From: Candidatus Woesearchaeota archaeon
Lineage (GTDB): Archaea; Nanobdellota; Nanobdellia; Woesearchaeales; JASKKU01
Direction: 5' to 3'
DNA length: 32,821 nucleotides
Assembly: GCA_030154045.1 (NCBI GenBank)
Contig: JASKKU010000009.1
Location: forward strand, 1 to 32,821
In this document: piece by piece, positions 11,279 through 32,821 of the stretch
Layout: each line of letters begins with the position of its first letter
Numbering within the stretch: position 1 is the first letter of the stretch
The notes under the pieces: model-generated
Databases searched by the model: none
What the model was told of the DNA's origin: nothing
The model's input: the letters and a program-made list of their open reading frames with translations, nothing else
Program-made: the position numbers and the translations under genes

Positions 11279-12037
11279 ATGACAAAAAACAAAGAAAAGA
11301 AGACAATTGTTTCAGACAGAAATAATAGAATTTTTAAGAACAATCACAATAATGGAATCATTCTAGCAATCTATAAAAGGCTGTTAAAAGAATATTCTTA
11401 TCAAGGCTGGTGGCCGTTAATTGAAAAAGATGCAAAAACGAACAGATATATTTCAAGATACCATCCTAAAAATTATGATTTGCCAAGAACACCTGAACAA
11501 CAGTTTGAGATAATTGTTGGCGCGATTTTAACTCAAAACACTTCCTGGCTCCAGGTTGAAAAAGCGCTAATAAATCTCAAAGAAAAAAATTTGCTGTCGC
11601 CAAAATCAATTCTTAATGCTAACGAAGATTCATTAAAAGAAGCAATTAGACCTGCAGGTTATTTTAATCAGAAAGCAGAACGATTAAAACTAATTTCAGA
11701 ATGGTTCATAAACAAAAAAGGATTACCTTCAAGAGAAGAACTTTTATCAATAAAAGGAATTGGCAAAGAAACTGCAGATAGTATTCTTTTGTATGCTTAC
11801 AAACAACCTTCTTTTGTCGTAGATGCATACACAAGGAGATTGCTTTTCAATTTAGGCTTAATCCAAAATATAAAAGAGAAGTATGATACTATTAAAGAAT
11901 TGTTTGAAAATAGTTTACCTAAAGATTTCAAGATTTTTCAAGAGTATCATGCTCTTATCGTAGCGCATGCAAAACAATTCTATAAAGGAAAAGGAAAATC
12001 AAAAGAATATTTCCTAAAAGAACTTTTCAATGATTGA
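11279..12037 (+). CDS. HhH-GPD superfamily DNA glycosylase, endonuclease III-related (COG2231/MagIII-like)
   Basis: GAILTQNTSWLQVEKAL, LLSIKGIGKETADSILLYAYKQPSFVVDAYTRRL (helix-hairpin-helix plus GPD Asp). No C-terminal 4Cys Fe-S motif. Confidence 0.83.
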   Translation: MTKNKEKKTIVSDRNNRIFKNNHNNGIILAIYKRLLKEYSYQGWWPLIEKDAKTNRYISRYHPKNYDLPRTPEQQFEIIVGAILTQNTSWLQVEKALINLKEKNLLSPKSILNANEDSLKEAIRPAGYFNQKAERLKLISEWFINKKGLPSREELLSIKGIGKETADSILLYAYKQPSFVVDAYTRRLLFNLGLIQNIKEKYDTIKELFENSLPKDFKIFQEYHALIVAHAKQFYKGKGKSKEYFLKELFND

Positions 12038-13064: not shown

Positions 13065-13724
13065 ATGCGCTCAGACAAAATTGAAAAAGAAAAAGGATTC
13101 AAGGAGTTGCTTTTGAAAATAAATAAAGTAAAGAACACTCCCACAAAAGAAGTTATCTCAAAGAGAATAAAAGAATTCAAATCATTTAAGAACAAATCTA
13201 ACGTAGAGTTCTTCAAAGAATTGTGCTTTTGCTTGATGACCGCCAATTTTAATGCTGAACGTTCTATTATGATTCAGGAAAAAATTAATAATGGCTTTCT
13301 CACATTAAATCAAGAACAACTTGCAAAAACCCTAAAAGAACTGGGCCATAGATTCCCAAATATGCGTGCAAAGTATATCGTTGAAGCAAGAGCATACAAA
13401 GAAAATATAAAAGATACATTATACTCGCTAAAAGATGATCTTGAAAGAAGGAATTGGTTAGTAAAACACATCAAAGGTTTAGGACTCAAAGAAGCGAGCC
13501 ATTTCTTAAGGAACACAGGCTTTCTTAATGTTGCAATCATTGATTTTCATATAGTTGACTTACTAGCAGAATACAAAATAATAGAAAAGCCCAAATCCCT
13601 TACAAAAACAAAATATCTTCAAATAGAAGAAAAACTAAAAACCTTATCAGAAAAACTAAACCTAAGCTTAGGAGAACTAGATTTATACCTGTGGTTCTTA
13701 GAAACCGGAAAAGTCCTAAAATAA
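13065..13724 (+). CDS. ogg: Archaeal OGG2-type 8-oxoguanine DNA glycosylase/AP lyase
   Basis: KNKSNVEFFKELCFCLMTANFNAE, HIKGLGLKEASHFLRNTGFLNVAIIDFHI, C-terminal LDLYLWFLETGKVLK. Strong resemblance to the Methanocaldococcus Ogg2 family. Confidence 0.92.
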   Translation: MRSDKIEKEKGFKELLLKINKVKNTPTKEVISKRIKEFKSFKNKSNVEFFKELCFCLMTANFNAERSIMIQEKINNGFLTLNQEQLAKTLKELGHRFPNMRAKYIVEARAYKENIKDTLYSLKDDLERRNWLVKHIKGLGLKEASHFLRNTGFLNVAIIDFHIVDLLAEYKIIEKPKSLTKTKYLQIEEKLKTLSEKLNLSLGELDLYLWFLETGKVLK

Positions 13725-15128: not shown

Positions 15129-17672
15129 TTATCCTCTTGAATTATGAACTCTATAAGTTATTAGAGTCCAAATTAATAGCAATATGAAAGTTATGAACAA
15201 CTTAAGCTCTGAGGTCTCAAAGAATTTAATTAACAAATTCTTCCTTTTGACAACAAAAGTAATTGGCGCAAAACCAACTAATTTACCATTGGAATAAAAT
15301 TTCAGATAGTAATCTGTTTTACATTTGGAAACATCCTTTGATTTAAAAGTATATAATAATGTTTTTTCTTCGGAATAATTCAGAAATCCAGAGCCATTTA
15401 TGTATTCAATACAAGGATTTGGTTCATACTTTATTGTCAAGTTAGGTAAGTTTCTATCACCTATGTTCTTTAGAAAGAAAGCTATTTCCTGCTTAGAATT
15501 TGGTTCAAGAACAACAGTTCTCGGATATTCTAAGACCATAAGCCTGCTTAAGTTACCTCTAGGTATGACAATGACTTTCAAGAGTTTTCTGGTAACCTCC
15601 CTGGATTCATTACCAATAGTCACGTTAACAACAACAGGAACATAGTATGTTTTAGGAATCGCTTTCTCATAAACCGAAAGCTCCAAACTTCTATTTATTT
15701 TCGTCTGAGGGGAAATGTTCTCTATAAACTGAATAGAGGTATCCCATCCCTTCAAAACTTCATGGAAAACACTTAAATTGTATACAGTAGCATTACCTAA
15801 GTTAGTTAAATTAAAGAAATATGAACCTGCTTCACCTTGCATTAATGTTACATTCTTTGGCAGTTCCAACTTTAAAGTCAAAGGCAATGGAAATTTAGGT
15901 TTTTCCTCATTGGTTTCAATAGGAATTTGAGTTGGTTGTCCTGAACCTCCTGAAGGCTGGGGGCTTCCTCCTTGCCCTGAGCTCTCTCCTTGCGTAGGCT
16001 GTGGAACAGGCTGAGGTTCTGGTTCAGGTTGAGGTTCTGGAGGCTTCTTAAATCCAAATGGTGCAAACACTGAGAAATTAGATAAGTTCAGAGTCATAAT
16101 CAATTGCTCAGATGGAGAAACCAAAGTATAAAGCCTCTTCCAAGTACCATTAACCCAACCAACTAATTGTTCTGTTGTTGTAGTATTTGTAATATTGTCA
16201 AAAGTTGTTAGAGTGGTATTAACAAAAGTTCCGTTATATTCATAAACGCTAATATTGTCAGTGGTTACGTAATCTAAGATATCTTCATCATAATGAAACT
16301 TAATTATTGCCCAGGAATCATTATTATTTTTCTCTGAAGGAGTATATTCTACAAATTGTCCAATATCAAGCAAGCCAGTAATATTTGGTTTTGGAGGTTC
16401 CTGCTTTACAGAATTAACAATACTGTCCTCAAAATCACTAGTTAGCTTTGCCGTAGGTATCGAAACATTAACTAAAGAGACTATAGAATCATCCTCAGCA
16501 ATAATTTCTGAAGAATTACTCACATTGATTATAAAATTAACTATTTTGGCCTTGCTTTTATTTGTTACAAGAATACCAACTATATTGTAAGAACTTGCGT
16601 CTCCAATTAAAGTGACTGTACTATTGTAAATACAAACACCATATCTAAAATCCTGGGTTTTTAACCTCTCTAAAGATATGTTCTGTGAATTTCGTATCAC
16701 AATAGGACAACTATCTTCAGATAAACTACCATTAATACTTCCATCACCATCAATGATCTCAGGACCAAAGTTTATTACCACTTGACTTTGATTTTCAATG
16801 ACCATACACGTTGAATTGTAATTTAATTTACTATTATTCACAACATAATAGCCTGATTCATTTATCTTTGTACAAGGGTCGTTAATAACCTTAATCCTCA
16901 AAGATTCTAAACCATTAACAAAAATCTTCTCTTCACCAACCATATCTTTTGTATAGGTAAAGGTCTGTTTTGGAGCAAGGATTCCTTCAAATGCTGAAAC
17001 GTTTGAACTGTTTACAAATGAAACCACCAAACCAGACTCAAGTCTGTCTATTGTTAAGTTCTTATCATCAAAAACTTTGTCAACTGAAAAATAATAGACC
17101 TTAGGAGGAGCATCTATGTAAACAGAGATCTTATAAGAACCGTTCAAGACGGAATTCAAATAGGTTAAGTCACTTATGTTTAAATCAGGAGTCTTGTTTA
17201 AATAATCGCTATAATTATCATAAACTAAAGCAAGCACCTTCCCAGGATACAAAGCTTCAGTACTTGAGAATACAACATCTAAAAGGGTGCAGTTATCAAC
17301 AATAGCATTTATCTGAAGAGGCAAAGAAAGAACACTTTTCGTAATATTCTTTGAGAAACTTGCATAAACCAAATCAACAATTTGACCTGGCCTCAGCCTT
17401 GAATCACAAAGTTTTAAGAACAGGTTTTTGTTTGTTGGGGAATAATCCATATAAGAATTACTTCCAAAAGTCAGGTTTGCAAAGGTTTGATTATATCTGT
17501 CATAAAGCAAATCCTGATTAAAAATGGAAAAGGTTTGATTACTATCATTGGTAAAATTTTGAATTAAGAAAGATGCATTCAATGAAAAAGCTGAGTTTAT
17601 AACTAAAAGAACAGAGAACAAACTAAACAATAAAAAAATACCTAACTGTAATCTCTTCTCAATTAGCTTCAT
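15129..17672 (-). CDS. Exported surface protein: signal peptide, beta-helix-like segment, PGF-pre-PGF-like domain, Pro-rich linker, NEW3-like domain, C-terminal TM
   Basis: N-terminal signal segment; VVINFGPEIIDGDGSING...SLERLKTQDFRYGVCIYNSTVTLIG beta-helix-like strands; PEPQPEPEPQPVPQPTQG linker; FNLTNLGNATVYNLSV...; C-terminal LFITFILLLIWTLITYRV; many N-x-S/T sequons. Confidence 0.7.
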   Translation of the reverse strand: MKLIEKRLQLGIFLLFSLFSVLLVINSAFSLNASFLIQNFTNDSNQTFSIFNQDLLYDRYNQTFANLTFGSNSYMDYSPTNKNLFLKLCDSRLRPGQIVDLVYASFSKNITKSVLSLPLQINAIVDNCTLLDVVFSSTEALYPGKVLALVYDNYSDYLNKTPDLNISDLTYLNSVLNGSYKISVYIDAPPKVYYFSVDKVFDDKNLTIDRLESGLVVSFVNSSNVSAFEGILAPKQTFTYTKDMVGEEKIFVNGLESLRIKVINDPCTKINESGYYVVNNSKLNYNSTCMVIENQSQVVINFGPEIIDGDGSINGSLSEDSCPIVIRNSQNISLERLKTQDFRYGVCIYNSTVTLIGDASSYNIVGILVTNKSKAKIVNFIINVSNSSEIIAEDDSIVSLVNVSIPTAKLTSDFEDSIVNSVKQEPPKPNITGLLDIGQFVEYTPSEKNNNDSWAIIKFHYDEDILDYVTTDNISVYEYNGTFVNTTLTTFDNITNTTTTEQLVGWVNGTWKRLYTLVSPSEQLIMTLNLSNFSVFAPFGFKKPPEPQPEPEPQPVPQPTQGESSGQGGSPQPSGGSGQPTQIPIETNEEKPKFPLPLTLKLELPKNVTLMQGEAGSYFFNLTNLGNATVYNLSVFHEVLKGWDTSIQFIENISPQTKINRSLELSVYEKAIPKTYYVPVVVNVTIGNESREVTRKLLKVIVIPRGNLSRLMVLEYPRTVVLEPNSKQEIAFFLKNIGDRNLPNLTIKYEPNPCIEYINGSGFLNYSEEKTLLYTFKSKDVSKCKTDYYLKFYSNGKLVGFAPITFVVKRKNLLIKFFETSELKLFITFILLLIWTLITYRVHNSRG

Positions 17673-17690: not shown

Positions 17691-19475
17691 TTATCTTAAG
17701 ACGGTATCCAAAAAGTTTGTGAACACATGGTATATGAAATTAAACGATTGACTCACTAGGTCTTTATGATAGATTTCTTTATGGGATAAATCGTTTGAAG
17801 AAACATTAGCAATCTTCAACGGATACTGCTGCGTTAGTTTTCCATCAATTATAAAATTAAAGGGCTCTCCGCTAGCTGTATGCCCCTCAAAGTATAAAGA
17901 ATAGTTACCAACAGTATCCTGATAATTTAGGTAAGAATACTCAGGTTCGTACAACTTGTTGTATGTTGGAATAAAAGTGAAAGATGCATTCCCATAGTAA
18001 TCTGTAATAAAAGTGGTCGTAGTTTTAGTAATTAAGCCACTCTTTACTGTATTATTTGAATCATCAATTACCAAGTCAAAGATTTGACTAGGTGAAGATA
18101 AGCTAAGACCATTGACTTGTATAAGATCAACAGTCGCGTTGTTTAAGATTTTATCATCCGAATCCTTAAAATGAAAATCAAGTTTATATGGCTGGTTAGG
18201 ATAAGGGAAAGTGTCGTTTGCTTTACCATCTATGTAAATCTCTGGGAGAACAATAGGTTTTAACTCGAAATCTCTTGTATCGCTATTATCAGCTTCATTA
18301 CATTCTGCAATATCATTGTTTGAATCAACTTCAACCTTCACAGTATAAAACCCGCTCTTTGCATATGCAGGCCAGTTTATTGTAACAGAAACGCTGCCAT
18401 CTGGAACAAAGGTATTGCTTATTGGAATATTGGTTTCATAAATCACCTGTGTAGGATTAGTCTTATTGTAAATTTTTACATTAACATTAAAATCTGTAGT
18501 TACGTCTACATTTCCGCCGTTAATTTCATAAGGTACATCTCTTGGATTAGTTATTGTGAAAGAGATATTTAGTTCCTGACTGTAATATACAGGGTTAGGC
18601 GTTACGCTATCTACAGAAACTCGCAAGTTTGGACCAATACAAATCGGATTACCTAAACCATTAATCACAACATACTTTGTATATGTTGTCTGGTCATCAA
18701 CAGAAACTAAACCAGTATTAAATGCAGGGAAATTAGCTGATGAAAAGATATCTCCATCAGTGCAATCAAAACCATTCCCATCATTGCAGACGCCAATTGC
18801 CGCTCTCCTCTTGTCACTTAAACCAAAGTTAATATCTGATAAAGATTTTGAGAAAGAGCCGCCCGTGGTTTGAAAAGTCACCGTTGGAACACCTATAGAT
18901 ATCTTTTTTGTTGCCTGGTCAAAACTCCTTGTAACTGAATAAGAGCCCCTGAAAACTGCATTTGTGTCTCCTAAAACAAAATCAGAAACACTTCCAGGAT
19001 TATTGGTTGTAGAATAACCTATCCATAACCTACCAGGAAATGCTGCCATATAAACATCAGGGTCAGTTACCGTTAACTGAGAAGGTGAAATAGTTAAATA
19101 ACCTGGAGTGGTTTCATAACAACCTGATTCAGAAGATGCTAAGTCTGTAAAAGCCAAAGCGCTGCTTGAAGAAGGGTCATAAGAAACTAATGCGTATTTC
19201 CAAATCCCTTGAACTCTAAGAGCATAAAAAGCGCCAACATACCTCTGACCAACATCGCACAACTTTATACCTATATCCAGATTGCCATCAATACCGTCCT
19301 GATACAAAGTAGATGGGTCGTTTGAATTGCCAGTAAAGTATAAACCAGATGATTGTTTGGTAAAGGTTGCGGTTTGTGCTAAAGCAATATGAATTTGTAA
19401 GAATAAGATTACAATAAACGCTAAAAGGCTTAAAATCTTAAATTCTCCTTTTTTATTTAACTTTGAATCTTGCAT
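17691..19475 (-). CDS. Exported protein with CARDB-like domain
   Basis: N-terminal hydrophobic segment ILSLLAFIVILFLQIHIALA; LRVSVDSVTPNPVYYSQELNISFTITNP...YTVKVEVDSNNDIAECNEADNSDTRDF is CARDB-like; SD GGTGTGATTT before the ATG. Confidence 0.72.
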   Translation of the reverse strand: MQDSKLNKKGEFKILSLLAFIVILFLQIHIALAQTATFTKQSSGLYFTGNSNDPSTLYQDGIDGNLDIGIKLCDVGQRYVGAFYALRVQGIWKYALVSYDPSSSSALAFTDLASSESGCYETTPGYLTISPSQLTVTDPDVYMAAFPGRLWIGYSTTNNPGSVSDFVLGDTNAVFRGSYSVTRSFDQATKKISIGVPTVTFQTTGGSFSKSLSDINFGLSDKRRAAIGVCNDGNGFDCTDGDIFSSANFPAFNTGLVSVDDQTTYTKYVVINGLGNPICIGPNLRVSVDSVTPNPVYYSQELNISFTITNPRDVPYEINGGNVDVTTDFNVNVKIYNKTNPTQVIYETNIPISNTFVPDGSVSVTINWPAYAKSGFYTVKVEVDSNNDIAECNEADNSDTRDFELKPIVLPEIYIDGKANDTFPYPNQPYKLDFHFKDSDDKILNNATVDLIQVNGLSLSSPSQIFDLVIDDSNNTVKSGLITKTTTTFITDYYGNASFTFIPTYNKLYEPEYSYLNYQDTVGNYSLYFEGHTASGEPFNFIIDGKLTQQYPLKIANVSSNDLSHKEIYHKDLVSQSFNFIYHVFTNFLDTVLR

Positions 19476-19485
19476 AAATCACACC

Positions 19486-21195
19486 TTAATTATTCAATGA
19501 ATAAAACAATGAGGATAAAACCTGGTTCATTGCATTCGTAATAACCTTCAAAGTATCATCACTATAAAATGTGCCACCCATATCAATGTTCAAATCATTG
19601 TTTATTGACGCAGTAATTGTTTTTAAAAGATTGTAATTACTGTCGAGTATTTCTAACTCAACTACTGAATTAGATGCTGGCCTGGAAGTTGGTGTTATAA
19701 CGAACTGCTGACCTGTTGGAATCAATATTTCTTTATATTTCACTTTAGGGTCAAGAGGAACATTTGAATTATAAGGATTCATAATAAGATAACCACCTGT
19801 TTCTTTTATCCTCACGAAATAATTGCTCACAGGAAAACCGTTATTAGTAACAGTTACACTAATTATATTAGGTGCGCCAGTTTTTAGAAGCAATTGCCCG
19901 CCAAAATCAGGATAAGAACTTACAGAAACAGAATCTGTAGAGATTTCATAATTTACATTAAAACTATACGCTTGCTGAAGCACGCTTGACCACTTATACA
20001 AGAAACTAATGATTTGGTTCATCTCGTTTACACTAATCTTGGCATTATCATACAAAGTATCAGGAGACAGTGGCTTGCTTATATAAAGCAGTTCATCCTT
20101 AGAATCTACATAAAGAGTCTTCCTTGAAACAATTGAATCTCCGTAAAGATACGCTACGAAGATCTTATAAGTGTCACTGCTAGGATAAATGGTAGGTGCA
20201 ATAAGAAAAGTTTCTTCGCCAGTATCATCTGTCTGTCCTTGAGAATATGCTAAAGAAACATAACCTTGTAATCGTGTTGGAATAAACAGGTTCTGACCGT
20301 CTTCCTCACCAATAACAATATCAATGTTTTTAGCAGGAGCATTTCCTTCATAAATATAATAGGCTTTAACTCTAACAACATAAGGCAAAGCAGTTTGACT
20401 AAAATGATCAGTTTGAACACCATCTATAAAAACATCAAAATCCACTACAGGAAGCTTGCTTAATATGTAAAAAGAATAATCCTTGCTTGCAATTGGAAGC
20501 ATAAACTGAGAAATGCAGATATTATTATTAGCACACAACTGGTTTTTTAGTTCTGAAACAAACAAAGGAACATAAGTAGAACCATTATAATATTTCAAGA
20601 GGACCATCTTTGTTCCTGGGTCTAAGGTTATTGCAATACCCTGAAAAATATGACCTGAAATATTAACATAATCATAGAACCCTGAACTAAAAGTTATTTT
20701 TGGATTATCTGAAAAAGAATAATAATTATCATAGAATTCAGGGTAAAGTTCCGAATTAAATAAACCGTCTTTTTCTAAATCAGAGAAAGAGACATTATAT
20801 ACATTATTTACAGAAAAAGTTGTATAAAACGGCATCGCTGCGTAGTAATGGACTCCATCGTTGAGGTTATCTCCGGGAAAATAATGCGTTGTTACTATTG
20901 GGTCTGTAAGTGATAAAGATAAGAAAGGTTCATTGGTTTCACTTAAATCAAGACCATTATTCTCAATAATCATGCCAGCCCAATGGTCTGTTCTTGAAAA
21001 GCTCTCAAGCTTAACATAGTAAGAACGGCCTGCCAAGACGTTTACCCTCGCAGGAAGTTCATCTGCAAAAACATCTATAGCTAAAAAGTTTAACAAAAAC
21101 ACCAATGCCAAAAACACAGACAAAGCTCGCGCTAAAGAAATAGTAAAGAATACTCTACATCTAAAAACATCCTCAAACTTCATATTATCAAACAT
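19486..21195 (-). CDS. Exported protein of unknown function
   Basis: N-terminal hydrophobic segment ALSVFLALVFLLNFLAIDVFA; beta-rich, no recognised catalytic motif; 11-bp gap to the next gene. Confidence 0.6.
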   Translation of the reverse strand: MFDNMKFEDVFRCRVFFTISLARALSVFLALVFLLNFLAIDVFADELPARVNVLAGRSYYVKLESFSRTDHWAGMIIENNGLDLSETNEPFLSLSLTDPIVTTHYFPGDNLNDGVHYYAAMPFYTTFSVNNVYNVSFSDLEKDGLFNSELYPEFYDNYYSFSDNPKITFSSGFYDYVNISGHIFQGIAITLDPGTKMVLLKYYNGSTYVPLFVSELKNQLCANNNICISQFMLPIASKDYSFYILSKLPVVDFDVFIDGVQTDHFSQTALPYVVRVKAYYIYEGNAPAKNIDIVIGEEDGQNLFIPTRLQGYVSLAYSQGQTDDTGEETFLIAPTIYPSSDTYKIFVAYLYGDSIVSRKTLYVDSKDELLYISKPLSPDTLYDNAKISVNEMNQIISFLYKWSSVLQQAYSFNVNYEISTDSVSVSSYPDFGGQLLLKTGAPNIISVTVTNNGFPVSNYFVRIKETGGYLIMNPYNSNVPLDPKVKYKEILIPTGQQFVITPTSRPASNSVVELEILDSNYNLLKTITASINNDLNIDMGGTFYSDDTLKVITNAMNQVLSSLFYSLNN

Positions 21196-21207: not shown

Positions 21208-22005
21208 TTAGATCATTTTTTTGAAAACAATCACAGTTTGATTAAATGAATCCACATATTCGTTCAATGCAACCAATGAATTTGATGCGGAACTCGTCAA
21301 ATCAGATAAGTCAACCTCAATCTTATCAACATAATCCAAATACGAGACCCTTGTATCAAGGCTGCATTCCTCACGAATTATTGTATCTTCTGAAAGTCCT
21401 GAATCCAAGATTACAGCACCAGCAGGCAGGATATCTTTAAGAGTGATATTCTTGCAGACCAGATGACTCATAAAAGGCTTCAAGGTTAGATTAATTGAAA
21501 ATGCTATTTCTTCTCCGGGCTTTATGCTTAAATTACCCTTAGAAACATCACTTAATAGCCCACTATCTCGTAAAGAGATTGAATAATTTAAGATGTCATC
21601 ACTTAGATTTGCAAAGAAGTATGAGATAAATTCATTTAAATCTAAAACCTTAGCTTGATTAAGCTCATTTCTAAATAAGAAGTTTGCCTTTATCTCAAAA
21701 TTTTCTCCAACACGATATAACCTATCAGGGCTTACAAATTCATAAAAGGTCAAATTCTTGAACACTCCTGTTTTATAAAAAGACTGCGTAGAACTTACAT
21801 TCTCGGAAACTAAAGTCTCATTACTCTCTTTCAAATTTAATTCAGAAAGGTCATCAATATTTAGATAAATGCCGTTTGTAGAATTATCATGAAAAAACCC
21901 CTTATCTTCAAAAGCTTCTGCAAAAACAGAGTAATTTAAAGATATAAAACCAAAGATAATTGAAAATACTGCCATCCAAAAAACCAAAACTCTCGAACTT
22001 TTCAT
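21208..22005 (-). CDS. Exported protein of unknown function (first gene of operon)
   Basis: N-terminal signal segment SSRVLVFWMAVFSIIFGFISLNYSVFA; SD AAGGTG upstream of ATG at 22005 (ORF-track start 22020 would include the SD as codons). Confidence 0.6.
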   Translation of the reverse strand: MKSSRVLVFWMAVFSIIFGFISLNYSVFAEAFEDKGFFHDNSTNGIYLNIDDLSELNLKESNETLVSENVSSTQSFYKTGVFKNLTFYEFVSPDRLYRVGENFEIKANFLFRNELNQAKVLDLNEFISYFFANLSDDILNYSISLRDSGLLSDVSKGNLSIKPGEEIAFSINLTLKPFMSHLVCKNITLKDILPAGAVILDSGLSEDTIIREECSLDTRVSYLDYVDKIEVDLSDLTSSASNSLVALNEYVDSFNQTVIVFKKMI

Positions 22006-22119
22006 CAAGTACACCTTCAACTTAAAGCTGTGTAATATGAAGGCTTTTGATATGTTTGTTTACTTTGAAAACTATTTTTCAATATGTAGTTTATACTTCT
22101 TAGTTTATGATATCAAAAA

Positions 22120-22257: not shown

Positions 22258-24000
22258 TTAGAAATTCAAATCTTGCTCTTCCTTTTTCTTGCGTCTTCTT
22301 CTAAACAAAACCAAAAAGATTACTAGGATTATTGCAATAATTAGTATGAACAACCACTTAGGCTCTTCAATAATTCCTGCAAAGAAGCCCGTAATCCTTG
22401 AACCTTCATAGAACTTAACCACCTTAACACTGATAACCTTTGAATTTAATGTATCCTTCTGACCAAAATAGAGAGATATCTTCAAGGTTGTGTTATAAAA
22501 ATCATCTTTATACAAAAAAGGAGTATCCAAAACCAAAGTTCCCTCAGAATGACTTGGGATTATAACTTTTTTAGAACTGATTACATCTTCACGAGGTTTA
22601 TCCAATGGAATCTCTGCAAAAACAATCACATCAAAGCTATTATTATTATACACTTTCAACAACAATTTTCCTTTATTGTTGTCAAAGATCTGATCCTTCA
22701 ATTGAACAGATACAGATTCCCTATGCTGAGAAACATTAACTCTCTGTTGAATAAGTGGCAAGCCATCTTTATCTTTAAGAGTATCCTCAAGCGGGAAATC
22801 CATACCATAGAGAATGTTTAAAATAGCCTGGTCCTTGTTCTTATCAAATTTAGTTATCTCATCTTTAGATAAGTTCAAAAAGAAAGGTATTGTTAAAGTT
22901 TGACCTGGCAAGATTCTTATAGGATGCTCTATTGAATAAGCTTTATCCATAAACTCAAGATTTGGATAAAAGAAAGCCCTGAAATTACCTTTATTTGAGA
23001 TAGTGAGAGCAAGCGTGTTCAAATTAAGATAGAAAGTAACATTCTCCACATTTAACGAAACATAAGGATAATTCACAGAAAACGCATCGATGTCTATAAG
23101 TTTTCCTACATAAGGTTTCAGGTTTGTAATGGTTCTTGCATATTTCAACAGCAGCTTCAAATCCCGGCCTGAGCGTGTTTCTAACTCCTTAGCAACATCC
23201 GCAAGTTCCCCGCCAATAACCTCAAACTTGGTTGCATTTTTCTCATTAACCAGTGATGCAAGGAGATCAAGATTGCCGTCGTAAACGAAAATAGGCTTCC
23301 CAGAAGCTAAAATATCCGGATCAACCTTGTCAAGAATCATCAATGCAGACCAATCAAAATTAATTTTGTCTAATGTATAATTCAAAAGGGCAATCATGTT
23401 TTTATATGGAACATCTATAAACCTAATCCCTGGAAAGAAATCAATCAACCTTGAAGGAAAATAGCCTGCAGCAATGCTTTGCTCATCAAAATCAAAATTA
23501 GAAACAACAGAAGCCCTATTTTCTTCAGTGAGAAAAACAGGCCAATACTTTTTATCTTTAATTAAAGGCGCTGCAATAACAGCTTCATTGCCAAACTCAG
23601 GATTTAAAACAATAAAATTCTTGACCTTGTCTTTTATCTCAGTGTATAACTGAACTTGCAAATCTGAAAAATCATTAAAAAAAAGATTATTCAACTTGGA
23701 ATAATCCCTGACCTTAAGAAAAGATTCATAATTCCTAATAACGGGTTTTTCCTTTGATTCAAGTATCAAAACCGAAGCGTTCTTTGGAATAAGTTTTGTC
23801 TTGAGGTCAACATCTGCCAAAGAACTAAAAAATAAAGGTTTAGAGCCATCAAAAGTAGAGAACATAATCCCTAAATAGATGTCTCTCCAATCCTTAGAAT
23901 CTATTACAACATAATCGTATGCCGAAACAATAGGAACGAATAAACTTATGAATAAAATGAGAATGAAAACAGTATTTCGTATTGTGTTAACCTTTACCAC
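22258..24000 (-). CDS. Exported, C-terminally membrane-anchored protein with CWB2-like N-terminal region
   Basis: Signal segment NTVFILILFISLFVPIVSA; DWRDIYLGIMFSTFDGSKPLFFSS, NPEFGNEAVIAAPLI..YWPVFLTEE and KFEVIGGELADVA resemble cell-wall-binding repeat 2; C-terminal TM LFILIIAIILVIFLVLFRRRRKKKE. Preferred start is GTG at 24000 with SD AGGTGAGG rather than ATG at 24045. Confidence 0.62.
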   Translation of the reverse strand: MVKVNTIRNTVFILILFISLFVPIVSAYDYVVIDSKDWRDIYLGIMFSTFDGSKPLFFSSLADVDLKTKLIPKNASVLILESKEKPVIRNYESFLKVRDYSKLNNLFFNDFSDLQVQLYTEIKDKVKNFIVLNPEFGNEAVIAAPLIKDKKYWPVFLTEENRASVVSNFDFDEQSIAAGYFPSRLIDFFPGIRFIDVPYKNMIALLNYTLDKINFDWSALMILDKVDPDILASGKPIFVYDGNLDLLASLVNEKNATKFEVIGGELADVAKELETRSGRDLKLLLKYARTITNLKPYVGKLIDIDAFSVNYPYVSLNVENVTFYLNLNTLALTISNKGNFRAFFYPNLEFMDKAYSIEHPIRILPGQTLTIPFFLNLSKDEITKFDKNKDQAILNILYGMDFPLEDTLKDKDGLPLIQQRVNVSQHRESVSVQLKDQIFDNNKGKLLLKVYNNNSFDVIVFAEIPLDKPREDVISSKKVIIPSHSEGTLVLDTPFLYKDDFYNTTLKISLYFGQKDTLNSKVISVKVVKFYEGSRITGFFAGIIEEPKWLFILIIAIILVIFLVLFRRRRKKKEEQDLNF

Positions 24001-24087
24001 TTTACCCCTCACCTTTATTCCGTGAACAAAGATAAAATAAATCAAAACAAATGATCAATGTATTGTTGCCTTTCAGTTTTTTGTTTT

Positions 24088-24228: not shown

Positions 24229-27200
24229 CTAGTCATACTCATAAACTCTTGTTATCATATTAGTTGAACCCTTGTATGATGCCAGCTGTGAAGGCACTCT
24301 AGCTTCATAATCATAGATTCCATATTTGCCTTGCGTGTTCGCATTGATAACTGTGAAAAGCACTAAATCCTGACTGCCATTGTACTCAGTGCCGCCATCA
24401 CCTTTATCCCAAAGTAAAGCTGTTATGAAATTGCTATTGTTCGTTGAATTTATATAAGGAACCTCTGTTACTTGACGGCCTCCTATAACAAAAGTACCTA
24501 AATGATCAGGAATGCCGTTATTATCCTTATCAAACAACCTTTCAATTGAGTCGTTAAATCCAGTTAAGCCTAATGCTTGGTCTGCCTCAGCTAAATCATT
24601 AGTCCCATTCAGAGGCTCTAAATCCAATATTGAAAAATATGAATCAGTATCTGCAAAGTATAAGTTGCCTACCGGCTGAGTAGGAGTCCAATTCTTCAAG
24701 GTATTATTATCCTGCTCATCCTTCAATTCATAAACATAACTAAAGTTACCGTAATAAATTGCCCATGCTGGCGTTGTTTTGTTAACTGAAACAAAGTTAT
24801 TTGATTCATTACTCTCAGCAATATTATTCAAAGGATCTACATAAATATCAAATATGTGTGTTCCTGCCTCTGCTGTCCAGTTAAAGCTTATCAACTTGCT
24901 TTCACCAGCATTTAAACTGAAAGCAGTGCTATCTTGAGAGCTTTCAGGCGTTTTAGTACCGTTCCAGAATGAAACATTTAATCTAACAACTACATTTGAA
25001 ACATCAACATTCTCCAAGTTAGTTACATTAACAGTTATTGTATAATTGTTTCCTTCAACAAAGTTTTCGGATGAGAATCCAACGTTTGAAATCGTTAAAT
25101 CTGGTAAATTGTTGCTTAAGTTTATTGACCACGCGTCAAGGTGTGGCGTATTATACGAACCATCAATTATCAACTTCGCCTCTAAATATAGGCTTTGTTC
25201 AGCTTTGGCATTTGCGCAAAGTTGATAACCATTAATAACACTTGCCAAACTCAAATCTCCGCATAAACTGTTTTTGTTTGAATCCAAGATTCTAAATATA
25301 ATGTCAGAACTTCCATCCAAAGTTGCATTAACATCAAAAGTGTCCCAGGAAGTTGTTGAGTTCCTTGTCAACAGAATGCTCCTTACAGTGGCATTTCTCA
25401 AAGGTCTTTCCTCACTTGAAATAGAGTTCAAAACAGGTTCGCTTGTTGAATACTTGCTAACAGCGATCCAATCAATGTACATAGAATCAACGTAGTATGA
25501 ATAAAGCGTCGGATTAAGTGTGCTACCTGCAGACGCAGAATTTAAAGTTAATGCACTGCTTTGATTATCATTAACAAACAATTCATAGTTATCATTCACA
25601 AAATCAGAAACAATCCTGAACCGTGTCTGCTGGGAAACATTCAAACTGTAATAATTATTACCGCCATTATACAAATTAATTCGATCATTTGATGGATCAA
25701 AGTAAAGCCTTAAATTCTTAGTACCTGCACCATTACCAAACCTGTAATAACCTGCAATACCACTCGCATCTGCAGCCAACTTAATCATAGTTTGATATGC
25801 GTTTGGATAAGTATAAGATGCTGTAATTTGAGAGCTTGACCCTGTAGCATTTGGAACAGCATAACCTGAAGTTGAATACCAGTTATTGGCATTACTTCCC
25901 CATACTGATGAACTCACATTATCAAAGTCATCAAAGAACTCAAACACTGCAGAAGCATTGTCTCCAGGCTGAGCAGTAGGATTGCCATAATACATATAAA
26001 CAATTGAACCTGCTGAATTTATTTCTGGAACCTTAATCCAAATCGTTGAATTTTCAAAAGCAGAACCACAATCTTCAACCCAGAAAGCTATTGTTTGTTC
26101 TTGAGATGAGGAATTCAAATAAGTAAATCTCAAATCTTTACAATTATCACTAACCTTGCCTGAGCTTTTCTCTTGAGATAGATTCAAACTTAATCTAACT
26201 TGGTAATCAGTTAGAGTAGACGAACTTGAAATGTTCAACTCCTTTCTATACTTCCAGCAATCAGGAGTCTGATTATTGTAATCTGTAGAAACCGCAGGCC
26301 AACAAGATGCAATCCTCGCCTCGCTAATAGTTTTATTTGCCAATAAGTTTTCAGCATAAGAAATTCCAGTATAACCATCAAAGGTATCTGCCCATGTGTT
26401 TAAATCAGTATCAAAGTTAACAGTTGCATTTCCGACCTTTCCACCGGAATCCATAGCAAAAACAGTTAGTGTATTCGCACCAAACTTTGCTGTAATTGTT
26501 GTGTTAGGCTCAAAGCTGTAGTTAACTCCATTCAGATCAAACCACCATTTTTCTATATACTTGTTTGAGCTTACATTCAAATCAATAATGCTTGTGTTAT
26601 AAGTGATAGGTTGAGGACTCGTTATATCAACAATAGGTGCTTCTGTAGAAACCAAAACTCTTCTAACACTTGAACTTGCAGTATTTCCTAAAGTATCATT
26701 ACCTGAAACACTGTAATTATACCAGCCATCTATTAGATTAGTTACATTGTAATAGAAATGCGTGGCATCAACTTTGTTCATTGTATAATAACTTGTAGCT
26801 GTTGAATTTACCCAAGTTAATGTTAAAACATCAGCTGGCTCATTTGTTGTAACATTTATGTAAACCCACAAAGTATCTACGGCACCATTATCTTTTGGTG
26901 TAGGAGCTACAAAAGTGAACACAGGTCCTGTTGTATCCACGGTGAATTCTGTAAAGTTAGTTCCAAAGTTGCCTGCCGTATCATTACACCTTACACTCAC
27001 ATTATGTTTCCCATCAGCTAATGTTGAAAGGTTATAATAGTAAGTTTCATTAAACTTGGTTAAACTATTCCAAATTCCTTGGCTATCAAAATCAAACAAG
27101 CAACTACTCAAGTTCTCATTAGATGAAACATTCACCCATATGCTGCTTACTGTATAATTTGTGTTTATAGGACTGATAAGCGTAATATTTGGAGCGATTG

Positions 27201-30200
27201 TATCTACATAAAAGTCTACTGCTGAAATATTAGCGTTCTGAGCACTATCAATTGCTTTAACCACAACAGTATGCAAACCTTCGCTTAAACCTGACAATGC
27301 TATGTTATTACAGTTCGTAATCTCAACAAAGCCAGCATTATCTAAATCATAATAACATCTTAAGTTTGAATTATCGCTGACAGTATAATTCAAATCTACG
27401 CTAGAAACATTATAGATTTCATTTTGTAAAGGACTTTCAATCGTCAAGCTTGGCGTTGTTATGTCTATATTAAAGTAAACATATCCTGAATCTGTAACAT
27501 TGTTGGCATCAGAACAATAATAGATTACATTATGAGAACCTTCTGTTAAACCGCTATAATTATAATACCACAATTTTGAGTCAGCCGTGTTCAAACTTTG
27601 GTTCGCATTATCATCTAAAGAGAAATTACATGATAACGCATTTTTGTTAGTGCTTGCATTCAACCAAATCCAGGTTGTATTATAATATGAATTATTAACT
27701 GGCGATACTGCAGTAACAACCAATTCAGTTAAGTTTACACTAAAGTTAACGCTACTAAAGTTTACATTACCTGCGGTATCATTAACATAAACGGTTACTG
27801 TATGATTATCATTAGTCAAGCCAACAATGGTAGTATTAATGCAACCAGGCAAATCCACTTTCGGATTATTATCAAGCACATACCAACATGATGAAATCTC
27901 TCTATCATCTGAAACCGTGTAATTCAAATCAACACTATTTGAGTTCTGGTACTCGAAATCCTGTTGAGGAGACTGTATGCTAATCTGCGGAGTTGTCAAA
28001 TCAATAGTATAGCTCACAGAATCAAAACCAATATTGCCTGAGCTATCGTTGGCATAAACAGTTATAGTATGAGTACCTTCAGTCAATCCAGTTAAAGTAA
28101 TATTCTGACAACTTGGTAAACTAACATTTCCTGAACCAGCGTTATACCAACATTCTGAAAGATGCGAATCTGAAACTGTATAATTCAATGATAAAGTTGT
28201 TACATTATACGACCTGTTTTGAGGAATATCAATATTAACAATCGGAGCTGTTGTATCAACAACCAAAGTATAATTTGCTATAGCAAAACTGCACTGGGCA
28301 TCATCGCAAGCCTGACAATTCCAGGAATAAACTCCATCCGATAAAGTCCTCTGGAAAATTGTCTGTGAATTATTTATGGGCGAAGTATTGACTAAAACTT
28401 CCTGCCAGGAACCTGAAAAGTTTCCATATAAACTAACATTCTTTAGGTTAATAGAATCGCTCGCAGTACAGCTAAAGTTTATTAATGACGTTGAAAGGTT
28501 AGCATAATCCACTGGATAATTTAAGGTAACGCTTGGCGGAACTGTATCTATAGTAAAGTTTCTTGAGACACTGGCAGTATTATTAACAGTATCGTTACAA
28601 TAAACCACAACATTATGTGCACCATCACTTGTTGTTAATAGATAATAATAATCTGTTTCATTCAATTTATTCATCGAAGTATTGCTTCCAGAATCCAAGG
28701 AGAAGACACAATTATTCAAATCCTCATTAGATGAAACATTAATCCAAACCTGATTGCTTTCATAAGTTTTATCTTGCGGGCTAATTAAAGTTAGTATTGG
28801 AGGAGTTGTATCAAGTTTAATTGTTCTTACTTCTGTTTGATTAGAATTCCCTGAAGTATCGTTAACAAACGCGTATAGAGTATAAACGCCATCTTGCAAA
28901 CTGGTTTTATTAACCCAATAGATACCTCCTTGAGAGTTTGCAAAAGTCTCGGGAGTACCATTAAAATACAATAAAACAGTATCAATATTATCATCTATAG
29001 CAGTTACATTAACGAAAATCCAATCCTTTGAATAGTTTCCAGATAAATCTGAGTTAGGATTAAAGAAGATTTGCGGATTTGTAGTATCAACAATAATAGT
29101 AACGCCATCTTCATAAGGTACAGTTCTATTATAGTATAAAGAGCTATTGTCATAGATTACACATTTCAAGTTATGTGTTCCATCTCCTAAAACACTAGTA
29201 GAAATTTGTTTAACTGCATAACCTGAGGAATTCGTATTTACAAATCCTAAACTAGTTGACCCATCAAAGAACTCAACAGGATAGTTTGCTAATGCTGATT
29301 TTAACTGTGTATCTTTAACCAAACAGGTTAAATTTAAGGTTTCATCACCATAACTTCCTGCTGCAGGCCTAATCCAAGTGACATTCGCATAACTATATAC
29401 CTCTACATTAACATTATCAGAACCTGGATGATAGTATGTTGCGCTAACATTAAACGTCAAAGTTTCTGGACCTAACTCATAATCTGAAGGTATATCCCAA
29501 GTGGTTGTTTCTCCTGTAGCGATCTGACTCTGTGAAGAGTTATACCAAACAGAATTTAGAGTTGCTATGTTTCCTTGAGAATCCTTAGGAACCTTTCCAA
29601 ACTCATCAACAACGGTTGCATTTAAACTTTGAGTTGTACCTCTATGCAAAATTGAATTCTCAGCAGGAGCAATAATTGTAGGATACAAATAACCATACAA
29701 ATTAATTGTTTGGTAAATAACTGATGAACCCGTAACCTTATAGAACTTGTCATTATCATCAGCAATAGAACAACTTAACTGGTCAGGACCAACATCGTGA
29801 TTTGAAAAGTCGTATGTTAACTTAGCATAACCTGAAGCATTAGTATAGTTATAACCAATCGAATAACCTAAATCTCCATCATAGAAAGTAACCTTGTAAT
29901 TCTCAATTCCCTGCAGAGTATCGTAATCACTAACCCTACAAATCAAAGTAATGTTGCCTCTGTCAACATCTCCTGTTGGAGAGATCCAGTCTAACTTAGC
30001 ACGGCCCCACATCACAAAATTCAAATAAGGTAACGTGTCATTTATGTTTCCATTTTGATCTTTTGCCTTAAGTTTAATTGAATGGTTTCCTGGTTCCCAA
30101 GAATTATTAGTGCAAACAGTAGCATTAGTCCAGTTTCCTGTAAATGGAGGAACCAACTCATAATCTACAAAAGTTCCTATTTGTTCATCGTAATTAACCC

Positions 30201-32821
30201 AACTCTGATTGATGCTTTCATCCCACAATCCTGAGATATAAACACAGTCACCTCTCATTAAATCAGTATCATTTATGGAATAATTGTTTCCTACAATCTT
30301 TGGTGGCGTAACATCGTTTCCAATAACTACATTAAGTGTTACAATTCCAGAATCGTCTTGGGAAGCATTATATTTCAAGCTAGCATTGTCTGTAATATTA
30401 CATTTAACATCATACGTACCAGCGGTATTAACAACAAAAGTATAGTTTGCCCATCCTGATGAATCAGTGAAGTTTGAGCCTAAGAAAGTATAAGTGCTAC
30501 TGCTTTGTTGCTTCATCCAGAAATTGACTTGATAATTCTGAATTCCAACTGAGGAGTTCGAATCAATTACTTTACAGTGCATAGTTGTTGAATTAGTTTC
30601 CTGAATACTTGCAGGATCAACATTTTCATTAGTTATTGACGCCCAGCCCCAAACTTCTATGTTCTGAGCAGGCATACTATTATTAACATTGTTAAACACA
30701 TCTGCAGCAAACTGTTTCCACTGAATTATTCCAGGACTTATGGTTGTCGGAACATTATAACTAATATTAGCCCATGCATCTGGACCTTGCAAGCTTACGG
30801 TTGTATAATTGCTCCAAGAACCACTCTCGTTTACACTTAAAGTTGCATTGCTTAGATTATAGTTATCGTGCCATAGCACATTCAAGCTTATAGAATCGCC
30901 TTTGTGCACTAAACTTGGACCGTCAATTGTTGTATAGTATGGAGCTATATTTTCTCTTGTTGTAAGAGTGAATATTTTATAATTTGATGAATCAATTTTG
31001 TAATATCTTGTTAAATTTTCAGTAATATTACATTTTAAAGTCTCAGTTCCTGGGGAATTGTCTGTATAAGTATAATACGCCCATCCAGTTGAATCAGTAA
31101 GGTTTGTTCCTATCAAATCTGTTGAGTTATAGAAGTATACTAAATAATTATCAATCCCATTATCTGAATCCGTAGCATCCGTAACCTTACAAGCAATCCT
31201 TACGCTATCGCCTTGATTAATCGTTGAAGTGTTCAGACTTCCTGAAGTAACCTGCGCCTTACCCCATACTGTAAGATTCAGATATGGTAAAGTATCATTA
31301 ACATTGCCTGATTCATCTTGAGCAATAATCTTAACATAATGCTCTCCAAGGAACCATGTTGAACTTGATGAAATCGTAAAGTTAGTCCAGTTGTACACAT
31401 TCTGAGGACTACTATTAACTAAAGTTGCCCAAGTTGAAGAACTTATTGTAGTGTAAGTCGCATTAGCACTAGCAATCGTTTCATCCCAACGCGCATATGC
31501 TATTATTGAATCTCCTCTAAAGATACTATCATTAGTTAAATTATAGATTCCATTATACAATCTTGGCGGCTGTGAATCCAATTCAATGATGTGCCAAGAA
31601 GAGAAATCCTGCTTTAAAAAGTCCTTGTGCTCAATCTTAAAGTTAACTTGTTTATCTGTTGTAGATGTAAGATTCACTATTACAAAGAAAGTTGCCGAGT
31701 TTCCTGAATTTACTATTCCTGATAAACTTGTATTCCAGGAAACATTGCCATCAAAACTTCCACCAACAAAATTAGTATCTTGCCTACGGTCATCGATTAA
31801 TGTCCCATTAGAATACCATATATAATTTGTATTGACATTCCAACCCGGGTCAAAATTGAAATAACTAACATTGGTTGTTGAGATGTTCCAGACAGTTTCA
31901 CCAATGTTGCTTGCATCAATCTCTATTCTATAAACATGGTCCTTATACAAATTAAAAGTCCTATTTAATCCCGAGCCAACAAGGTCGTTTGTATATATCT
32001 TCCAGTTCTGTTCAGCACTATCCGTTACATCATACACCCTAATATCACTTATATTAACTTGAAGTGGCGGAGCGACTATGTTAAAAAGAGAGTAAGCACT
32101 TAAATAAGAACCATCATAATTCTGCAAGACATTTCCATTCTTATCAACCAATTCAGCATAAACTCTATAAACGCCAGGGTTGTTATTAGCAGTATCCCAA
32201 GAAACATTATTCCAAATACTCGCAAGGTCCAAACCAGAAGTATTTATCGTTCTCAAGGTTTGAGAACTCAAATCATCTATAACCGTTTCAACATCCTGCC
32301 AGCTACCTGAATTATTATACTGAACCTTCATTATTAGGTAAGCGTCAAAATCAGGCCCAAAATTAAACACTTTGGAAGGTTTGTTTTCTACTTGTCCAAC
32401 AGAAACTGTTGGTTCAGGCCAAATATACTGTCTCATCTGTTTATAACCAAGCATATTTGTTTCATCATCAGTAGCTTCTTCATAGTACGCCCAAACAGGA
32501 TTAGTACAAACTAATTTCCAAGGACCTCTAGCATAAATAACATTATCAGTGTTACAATTAAAGCATCCTTTGTAAACTCCTGTAATATCTGAACCTGAAA
32601 CAGTTGTTGAACCAACCAAACCTGAAGAGTTGTAAACGCTACATTGCGTATTCTTAAACGGCGTGACTATGGCAATATACTCTGCATCTAAGCCACTACC
32701 AAACACAGTGCTCATTTCTTTAAGAGGAACAGCTACGCTTGATTCAGTACCATCAGAATCTGCCTGCTGAACTAATCCTGTCGGATAAGTGCTATATACT
32801 CTAATTGCGGGACCTGAACCA
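24229..32821 (-). CDS. Giant modular surface protein with tandem Ig-like repeats, DUF2341, LamG-like and CARDB domains; N-terminus beyond right window edge
   Basis: Continuous 2,828-codon ORF. Upstream of the listed Met (32715) the frame stays open to the window end: GSGPAIRVYSTYPTGLVQQADSDGTESSVAVPLKE-M. Repeated SPxxxxY...SxN...GxHxVxVxxNDTxGN modules. Confidence 0.9.
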   Translation of the reverse strand, partial: GSGPAIRVYSTYPTGLVQQADSDGTESSVAVPLKEMSTVFGSGLDAEYIAIVTPFKNTQCSVYNSSGLVGSTTVSGSDITGVYKGCFNCNTDNVIYARGPWKLVCTNPVWAYYEEATDDETNMLGYKQMRQYIWPEPTVSVGQVENKPSKVFNFGPDFDAYLIMKVQYNNSGSWQDVETVIDDLSSQTLRTINTSGLDLASIWNNVSWDTANNNPGVYRVYAELVDKNGNVLQNYDGSYLSAYSLFNIVAPPLQVNISDIRVYDVTDSAEQNWKIYTNDLVGSGLNRTFNLYKDHVYRIEIDASNIGETVWNISTTNVSYFNFDPGWNVNTNYIWYSNGTLIDDRRQDTNFVGGSFDGNVSWNTSLSGIVNSGNSATFFVIVNLTSTTDKQVNFKIEHKDFLKQDFSSWHIIELDSQPPRLYNGIYNLTNDSIFRGDSIIAYARWDETIASANATYTTISSSTWATLVNSSPQNVYNWTNFTISSSSTWFLGEHYVKIIAQDESGNVNDTLPYLNLTVWGKAQVTSGSLNTSTINQGDSVRIACKVTDATDSDNGIDNYLVYFYNSTDLIGTNLTDSTGWAYYTYTDNSPGTETLKCNITENLTRYYKIDSSNYKIFTLTTRENIAPYYTTIDGPSLVHKGDSISLNVLWHDNYNLSNATLSVNESGSWSNYTTVSLQGPDAWANISYNVPTTISPGIIQWKQFAADVFNNVNNSMPAQNIEVWGWASITNENVDPASIQETNSTTMHCKVIDSNSSVGIQNYQVNFWMKQQSSSTYTFLGSNFTDSSGWANYTFVVNTAGTYDVKCNITDNASLKYNASQDDSGIVTLNVVIGNDVTPPKIVGNNYSINDTDLMRGDCVYISGLWDESINQSWVNYDEQIGTFVDYELVPPFTGNWTNATVCTNNSWEPGNHSIKLKAKDQNGNINDTLPYLNFVMWGRAKLDWISPTGDVDRGNITLICRVSDYDTLQGIENYKVTFYDGDLGYSIGYNYTNASGYAKLTYDFSNHDVGPDQLSCSIADDNDKFYKVTGSSVIYQTINLYGYLYPTIIAPAENSILHRGTTQSLNATVVDEFGKVPKDSQGNIATLNSVWYNSSQSQIATGETTTWDIPSDYELGPETLTFNVSATYYHPGSDNVNVEVYSYANVTWIRPAAGSYGDETLNLTCLVKDTQLKSALANYPVEFFDGSTSLGFVNTNSSGYAVKQISTSVLGDGTHNLKCVIYDNSSLYYNRTVPYEDGVTIIVDTTNPQIFFNPNSDLSGNYSKDWIFVNVTAIDDNIDTVLLYFNGTPETFANSQGGIYWVNKTSLQDGVYTLYAFVNDTSGNSNQTEVRTIKLDTTPPILTLISPQDKTYESNQVWINVSSNEDLNNCVFSLDSGSNTSMNKLNETDYYYLLTTSDGAHNVVVYCNDTVNNTASVSRNFTIDTVPPSVTLNYPVDYANLSTSLINFSCTASDSINLKNVSLYGNFSGSWQEVLVNTSPINNSQTIFQRTLSDGVYSWNCQACDDAQCSFAIANYTLVVDTTAPIVNIDIPQNRSYNVTTLSLNYTVSDSHLSECWYNAGSGNVSLPSCQNITLTGLTEGTHTITVYANDSSGNIGFDSVSYTIDLTTPQISIQSPQQDFEYQNSNSVDLNYTVSDDREISSCWYVLDNNPKVDLPGCINTTIVGLTNDNHTVTVYVNDTAGNVNFSSVNFSVNLTELVVTAVSPVNNSYYNTTWIWLNASTNKNALSCNFSLDDNANQSLNTADSKLWYYNYSGLTEGSHNVIYYCSDANNVTDSGYVYFNIDITTPSLTIESPLQNEIYNVSSVDLNYTVSDNSNLRCYYDLDNAGFVEITNCNNIALSGLSEGLHTVVVKAIDSAQNANISAVDFYVDTIAPNITLISPINTNYTVSSIWVNVSSNENLSSCLFDFDSQGIWNSLTKFNETYYYNLSTLADGKHNVSVRCNDTAGNFGTNFTEFTVDTTGPVFTFVAPTPKDNGAVDTLWVYINVTTNEPADVLTLTWVNSTATSYYTMNKVDATHFYYNVTNLIDGWYNYSVSGNDTLGNTASSSVRRVLVSTEAPIVDITSPQPITYNTSIIDLNVSSNKYIEKWWFDLNGVNYSFEPNTTITAKFGANTLTVFAMDSGGKVGNATVNFDTDLNTWADTFDGYTGISYAENLLANKTISEARIASCWPAVSTDYNNQTPDCWKYRKELNISSSSTLTDYQVRLSLNLSQEKSSGKVSDNCKDLRFTYLNSSSQEQTIAFWVEDCGSAFENSTIWIKVPEINSAGSIVYMYYGNPTAQPGDNASAVFEFFDDFDNVSSSVWGSNANNWYSTSGYAVPNATGSSSQITASYTYPNAYQTMIKLAADASGIAGYYRFGNGAGTKNLRLYFDPSNDRINLYNGGNNYYSLNVSQQTRFRIVSDFVNDNYELFVNDNQSSALTLNSASAGSTLNPTLYSYYVDSMYIDWIAVSKYSTSEPVLNSISSEERPLRNATVRSILLTRNSTTSWDTFDVNATLDGSSDIIFRILDSNKNSLCGDLSLASVINGYQLCANAKAEQSLYLEAKLIIDGSYNTPHLDAWSINLSNNLPDLTISNVGFSSENFVEGNNYTITVNVTNLENVDVSNVVVRLNVSFWNGTKTPESSQDSTAFSLNAGESKLISFNWTAEAGTHIFDIYVDPLNNIAESNESNNFVSVNKTTPAWAIYYGNFSYVYELKDEQDNNTLKNWTPTQPVGNLYFADTDSYFSILDLEPLNGTNDLAEADQALGLTGFNDSIERLFDKDNNGIPDHLGTFVIGGRQVTEVPYINSTNNSNFITALLWDKGDGGTEYNGSQDLVLFTVINANTQGKYGIYDYEARVPSQLASYKGSTNMITRVYEYD
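24785..25100 (-). other. CARDB-like domain within the giant ORF
   Basis: LPDLTISNVGFSSENFVEGNNYTITVNVTNLENVDVSNVVVRLNVSF...HIFDIYVDPLNNIAESNESNNF. Confidence 0.85.
25935..26265 (-). other. DUF2341-like domain within the giant ORF
   Basis: WKYRKELNISSSSTLTDYQVRLSLNL...DLRFTYLNSSSQEQTIAFWVEDC...STIWIKVPEINSAGSIVYMYYGNPTA. Confidence 0.85.
26400..29090 (-). repeat. About nine tandem Ig-like repeats, roughly 270 bp each
   Basis: Repeat starts recur near 28797, 28545, 28245, 27990, 27720, 27445, 27190, 26915 and 26640 with the motif (I/L/V)xxxSPxxxxY. Confidence 0.8.
29090..31575 (-). repeat. Four alternating two-module (D-C) protein repeats within the giant ORF
   Basis: C modules share ...CxVxD...GIxNYxVxFY...GxxxTxxxGxAxxxY...LKCxIxDN...YY. 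D modules end in a (V/M)WGxA boundary (VWGKA, VWGWA, MWGRA, then VYSYA). Approximate boundaries from read translation. Confidence 0.75.

Follow-up and report, generated by a model that had tools for sequence, protein, structure and literature searches.

A giant gene split across two contigs of a small-genome archaeon: a putative surface adhesin whose C-terminal domain is related to small secreted proteins

Background

How far does a gene extend that is still open where its contig ends, and what could keep its product on the cell surface? The question is raised by the window analyzed here, which is an entire contig (C13, 32,821 bp) of a 95%-complete genome of 805,359 bp in 29 contigs. Its minus strand holds an ORF of 2,828 aa counted from ATG (24229..32715), which we recomputed with a result identical to that of an earlier, sequence-only reading, and beyond the ATG another 35 in-frame codons run without a stop up to the window edge, giving 2,863 open codons (24229-32820, minus strand). 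As the window is the whole contig, the point where the giant runs off is an assembly contig end. The organism is, as had been supposed, a small-genome archaeon (805 kb), and its relatives are Woesearchaeota and other DPANN. It has yet to be explained how uncultured DPANN archaea attach to other cells, and most accounts of their giant surface proteins go no further than a list of recognizable modules.

One gene on two contigs

Within its own genome the window protein had a single further match, at the right end of contig C14, in an ORF of 2,509 aa that runs off the 3' end; the genome search found no additional copies of the giant. No overlap of 9 bases or more was found between the ends of C13 and C14, and the join consequently rests on homology. 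The last ~340 residues of the C14 part and the first ~160 of the window part align end to end, without gaps and in the same order, to three proteins from other genomes (L030, L031, and L032). In addition, a single unbroken ORF of 7,579 aa from another family (genome G152) aligns with the joined protein from residues 14-1108 through 5084-5372, and this alignment crosses the contig break (2,343 columns, 40.5%, E 0) with only 1-2 residues between the halves. Because the break is bridged by this ORF and by the three further homologues, we conclude from the alignments that C14 (plus strand) and C13 (minus strand) carry one gene of ~5,373 codons, the N-terminal 2,509 codons lying at L028:12473-19999 (plus strand, C14) and the C-terminal 2,863 codons plus stop at 24229..32820 (minus strand) of the window. 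For the frame to be kept, 1 base must be missing between the contigs (or 1 base plus some multiple of 3). The join site falls within a beta module, whose first half ends C14 and whose second half occupies 32341..32820 (minus strand), and four homologues are continuous across it. A possible resemblance of this module to IgGFc-binding domains found no support in Pfam.

That a contig end interrupts the gene might suggest a mis-joined frame, but both pieces are fully open with coherent modules and the intact long ORFs of other genomes keep the same order of parts. Since such ORFs carry both halves, an assembly-merged artefact can be excluded, and we give the idea of a false frame practically no credence. 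The lower bound of at least 2,863 aa proposed earlier holds, the full length being about twice what the window shows: the joined product has ~5,373 aa, ~595 kDa, a pI of 4.3, and 238 N-x-S/T sequons, and takes up about 2% of the genome.

Start, modules, and glycosylation of the giant

The flanking contig also revealed the true N-terminus, which lies outside the window on C14 and is signal-peptide-like. The gene probably starts with a TTG at L028:12473 behind a GGGGGGAA, and the C14 half begins (L)DFNFSSLRRNVVITLFISLVSLIFLFALVSA, with a hydropathy peak of 3.0 and a rule-based call as a Sec signal peptide. The signal peptide is followed by ~550 residues without a Pfam match, by DUF2341-LamG, DUF2341-LamG, and a third DUF2341, and then by a stretch weakly like an H-type lectin, probable Ig-like domains, and another DUF2341 (within this half, LamG/pentraxin reaches E 4e-50 and DUF2341 E 6e-58). 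The window part (all features on the minus strand) continues with about four repeats of ~190 aa, probably pairs of Ig-like domains (approximately 29101..32073; internal repeats and weak Big_3_5/Big_1 matches), and with ~8-10 tandem Ig-like (Big_13) repeats of ~90 aa (approximately 26701..29103; E 1.7e-25 and internal repeats). These are succeeded by a DUF2341 (25900..26145; E 7.3e-18), a CARDB domain (24790..25104; E 1.1e-10, with a fold match to 2kl6/3idu), and a strictly C-terminal domain (24232..24774), hereafter CTD, which is homologous to standalone secreted proteins of ~250 aa. Altogether the joined protein comprises five DUF2341 (four on C14), two LamG/pentraxin lectin domains, and many Ig-like repeats, its adhesion or carbohydrate-binding modules being LamG_3, Pentaxin, DUF2341, CARDB, and Big_13. 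The two LamG/pentraxin cassettes (joined residues ~607-895 and ~1051-1339) are up to 85-89% identical at the protein level over most of their length, a recent internal duplication.

The beta-rich character assumed from the letters was borne out by the Ig-like, DUF2341, and CARDB matches and by an AlphaFold model of CARDB plus CTD (the last 304 residues, pLDDT 92), which consists mostly of strands. The sequons are as dense as had been described, with 148 in 2,863 residues; composition-preserving shuffles gave 65.1 +/- 6.7, and the reversed motif occurs 78 times. We regard this enrichment as real, because the count lies far above both, and N-glycosylation is possible given that the same genome encodes AglB/STT3. 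The sequence-only reading had proposed a glycosylated cell-surface adhesin or giant S-layer-associated protein, and it is supported in part: the adhesin is well supported by the signal peptide on C14, the LamG/pentraxin and other surface modules, the doubled sequon density, and the AglB/STT3 gene, while "S-layer-associated" is a plausible label, which the homology of the CTD to small secreted proteins sharpens. A TadC/T2SSF protein, type IV pilus/archaellum-like, is encoded elsewhere in the genome.

No hydrophobic segment or TM helix was found at the C-terminus of the giant. Anchoring by an archaeosortase (PGF-CTERM-like) was considered and rejected, as the protein is devoid of a C-terminal TM helix with a basic tail and its last 180 residues form a folded beta domain.

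A C-terminal domain shared with small secreted proteins

Used as a query, the 223 C-terminal residues of the window protein recovered the CTD in 92 of 288 genomes sampled from the order; the matches were strong (E <= 1e-10) in 76, i.e., in about a quarter of the sample. The ORFs that bear it span 125 to 8,809 aa, and a length of 5,373 aa is not extreme for this order. In the loci read, the CTD ends 0-4 residues before the stop, the only exceptions being those where the contig itself ends. A scan of a wider collection with a closer alignment of six sequences placed the CTD mainly in records named as Woesearchaeota or as other Nanoarchaeota/Pacearchaeota; a few were Micrarchaeota or Diapherotrites. 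Judged by these relatives, the genome of the window most likely belongs to the Woesearchaeales. The record of one CTD ORF (L111) bears the name Verrucomicrobia bacterium T3Sed10_319, but its contig is probably of DPANN origin and mis-binned. CTD giants often occur in tandem pairs, with open frames overlapping by a few bases (L099, L100, L103, and L094). Pfam and NCBIfam hold no family for the CTD. The best 50 matches of a fold search with the CARDB plus CTD model were only CARDB-like and placed no relative for the CTD fold, and the alignment of the CTD against sequences of solved structures likewise returned CARDB only.

An HMM of the giants' CTD also picks up ORFs of ~240-290 aa that stand alone and carry a signal at the N-terminus. 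Three genes of this family lie on C14, 2-9 kb upstream of the giant (L028 3750-4466, 4662-5366, and 9575-10246; CTD HMM E 2e-4, 5e-4, and 4e-6). Profile-profile alignment (hhalign) of the two families gave 99.2% and E 2e-19 over 163 columns, nearly the whole CTD, and the reverse HMM, built from the small family, recovers CTDs, including that of the window (E 5e-11). At the level of such profiles the CTD is shown to be homologous along its length to the small secreted family of ~250 aa. The small proteins possess an extra segment of ~45 residues between signal and domain, which is absent from the CTD and is left disordered by AlphaFold (a moderate model, pLDDT 76). Their N-terminus, inspected by eye, has an A-x-A-like site after the hydrophobic stretch and then a conserved P-x-G-[PA], and looks unlike that of pilins. 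A fold search with the pLDDT 76 model gave no match with E below 0.37, sequences of solved structures gave no noteworthy match to the family, and 24 small proteins showed no consistent match to Pfam/NCBIfam.

Within the order, the small family was found in 110 of the 288 genomes. A sample of 279 genomes from across the phylum had it in 63, nearly all of these within this order. Its genes are often multi-copy and cluster beside giants in many loci. After removal of weak small-family matches that could be CTDs themselves, the family was counted in 70 of the 76 CTD genomes versus 31 of the 212 non-CTD genomes (odds ratio 68, Fisher 7e-35, by a test that ignores phylogeny). The dependence is one-sided, in that a genome with small proteins often has no giant, but a giant is seldom seen where small proteins are missing. 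One clear exception (G024) has a CTD giant and the conserved operon with no small gene detected, and in five other CTD genomes the small-family matches are weak only. The small-protein domain was also seen near the N-terminus of other large ORFs (L101:5855-8395, L088:1-3474, L116:13252-16746, G007:C23 with 855 aa, and G135:C45 with 1,806 aa), and hence there is more than one kind of fusion between this domain and long proteins.

Gene neighborhood

The giant is flanked by two paralogues, a 595-aa protein encoded in the window (22258..24045, minus strand) and a 583-aa protein encoded upstream of the giant on C14, both with a signal-like N-terminus and a C-terminal TM helix; relatives of them are found near giants in at least 10 loci. 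Further along the minus strand of the window follow a poorly conserved secreted protein of 270 aa (21208..22020), a secreted protein of 569 aa (19486..21195) that is conserved downstream of giants in other families (37-47% identity), and, both keeping the same place, a secreted protein of 594 aa with CARDB (17691..19475; 44-54% identity) and an 847-aa protein with a signal-like N-terminus and a C-terminal TM helix (15129..17672; 36-42% identity). The order 569-594(CARDB)-847 is kept downstream of CTD giants in L090, L091, L092, and L119, at 36-54% identity. MoxR-DUF58-VWA genes lie upstream on C14, and the same clusters contain them in L090, L092, and L119.

Several other observations concern these surroundings. 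The MoxR ATPase (L028:7685-9277) has an N-terminal segment of ~70 aa, weakly matching DUF5752, that recurs in proteins of 300-480 aa encoded directly downstream of CTD giants (e.g., L076:12493-13680, L096:11585-12502, L118:2392-3318, and L056:2164-3270), and such proteins are a possible cytoplasmic partner. Two neighbors on C14 (L028:198-1097 and 1184-1981) are nearly identical over long stretches (SKAYERNYSIN..., FKSLKNPNNFSSKKEYVEEFSKA) and represent a local duplication. In the window, two different ORFs that by eye are DNA-glycosylase/endonuclease III-like lie close together (11279-12037 and 13065-13724).

How the giant may be held at the surface

With moderate confidence, we read the giant as a secreted lectin/Ig adhesin that is held in, or caps, a surface assembly of the small subunits by means of its CTD; both the co-assembly and the contact with a host are what we infer. 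It would be exported by Sec, N-glycosylated, and extended away from the cell, where its N-terminal lectin (LamG) modules may bind glycans on a partner cell or surface. Its C-terminus bears no membrane helix, and the subunit-like CTD would pack with the small secreted proteins, which in turn may form a coat or fibre fastened by the neighboring membrane-anchored proteins of 583, 595, and 847 aa. The giant would represent the rare, long, and sticky member of the assembly and the small proteins its common members, in analogy to a pilus-tip adhesin, i.e., a long binding part joined to a pilin-like or subunit domain that lacks the N-terminal extension. It is also possible, though we put it forward only tentatively, that Woesearchaeales and their relatives build a previously unrecognized coat or fibre of ~250-aa subunits, into which giants of up to 8,800 residues are inserted through the extension-less CTD in the manner of tip adhesins.

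The homology between the CTD and the small family would, taken alone, fit equally well with a fold that both use independently or with a common carbohydrate or lipid anchor. The nearest rival to co-assembly is such shared-ligand anchoring, in which the CTD sorts or anchors its protein, and giants and small proteins independently bind the same surface component (a glycan, a lipid, or the 583/595-aa proteins). We consider it rather unlikely, yet it agrees with the strictly C-terminal position of the CTD on proteins of very different length, with the relatives of the 583/595-aa proteins near many giants, and with the CTD giant of G024 that has no small proteins. It accounts less readily for the strong co-occurrence and clustering of the CTD with the small family, and the additional ~45 residues of the small proteins, disordered in the model and missing from the CTD, are more easily explained by contacts between subunits. 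In type IX cargo, C-terminal domains serve as secretion signals, and a CTD addressed to a dedicated export system of that kind would suit its C-terminal position on many unrelated cargo architectures. This appears improbable, as the small family consists entirely of a CTD-type domain behind an N-terminal signal of its own, a Sec-like signal is likewise present on the giant, and neither Pfam nor the neighborhood comparison recognized a cluster-specific secretion machinery. A role that has been proposed for the nanohaloarchaeal SPEARE proteins, in a contact apparatus like type IV secretion, we find more improbable still for the giant: the large size and the Ig repeats are shared (PMC10266531), and the DPANN lifestyle would fit, but the giant has no C-terminal TM helix, and neither half showed a VirB4/TraG ATPase or any other enzymatic Pfam domain. 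Co-assembly with the small subunits remains the explanation that we prefer.

Relation to known systems

Giant DPANN adhesins with LamG, Ig, and CARDB are already known (PMC5498576, PMC10266531): Mia14 shows LamG expansion and CARDB fusions (PMC5498576), and the nanohaloarchaeon SVXNc has LamG proteins (PMC10266531). The protein described here is of the same kind as the giant DPANN surface proteins with LamG, Ig, CARDB, or PKD, being Sec-exported, very long, built of lectin, Ig, and CARDB modules, and encoded in a small genome; it differs by the CTD, the small-protein homology of the latter, and the conserved gene cluster, which are not described in the literature we found. The SPEARE giants (8,880-9,409 aa) carry a signal peptide, tens of Ig-like domains, and beta-propellers, and at their C-terminus a TM helix is followed by a VirB4/TraG-like ATPase (PMC10266531). 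Our giant resembles them in its size, signal peptide, and tandem Ig-like repeats, whereas Pfam and hydropathy revealed no C-terminal TM helix, VirB4/TraG-like ATPase, or beta-propellers. A SPEARE-type identity was rejected on account of its C-terminal part, which has neither a hydrophobic helix nor an ATPase Pfam match.

Two other systems offer an analogy only, in that secreted subunits that are small, beta-rich, and apparently free of a class III signal are combined with an adhesin bearing a subunit-like domain. Chaperone-usher pili have two-domain tip adhesins. Archaeal threads are donor-strand filaments of Saci_0406 (PMC9715654). Unlike in these, the subunit-like domain here ends a 5,000-aa protein, and there was no sequence or fold match to solved structures (small-protein model pLDDT 76). 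A DPANN-specific secreted cluster, cls.004306 / NEQ255, is "often encoded next to ... S-layer-like proteins" (PMC6393860). Compared by description, it is similar to the small family as a DPANN-restricted secreted dark-matter protein near S-layer-like genes, and it may be the same family. Neither the small family as such nor its link to the CTD was described in the literature searched, and we found there no mention of the CTD, of its strict position, or of the relationship between it and a small secreted family with many copies.

Conclusions

The HMM of the CTD finds giants even when the assembly breaks them, and the link to the small family predicts, for about a quarter of the genomes sampled in the order, which proteins are part of a single surface structure. 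The homology of the CTD to small secreted proteins suggests how such giants may stay on the cell surface, a suggestion that is directly testable.
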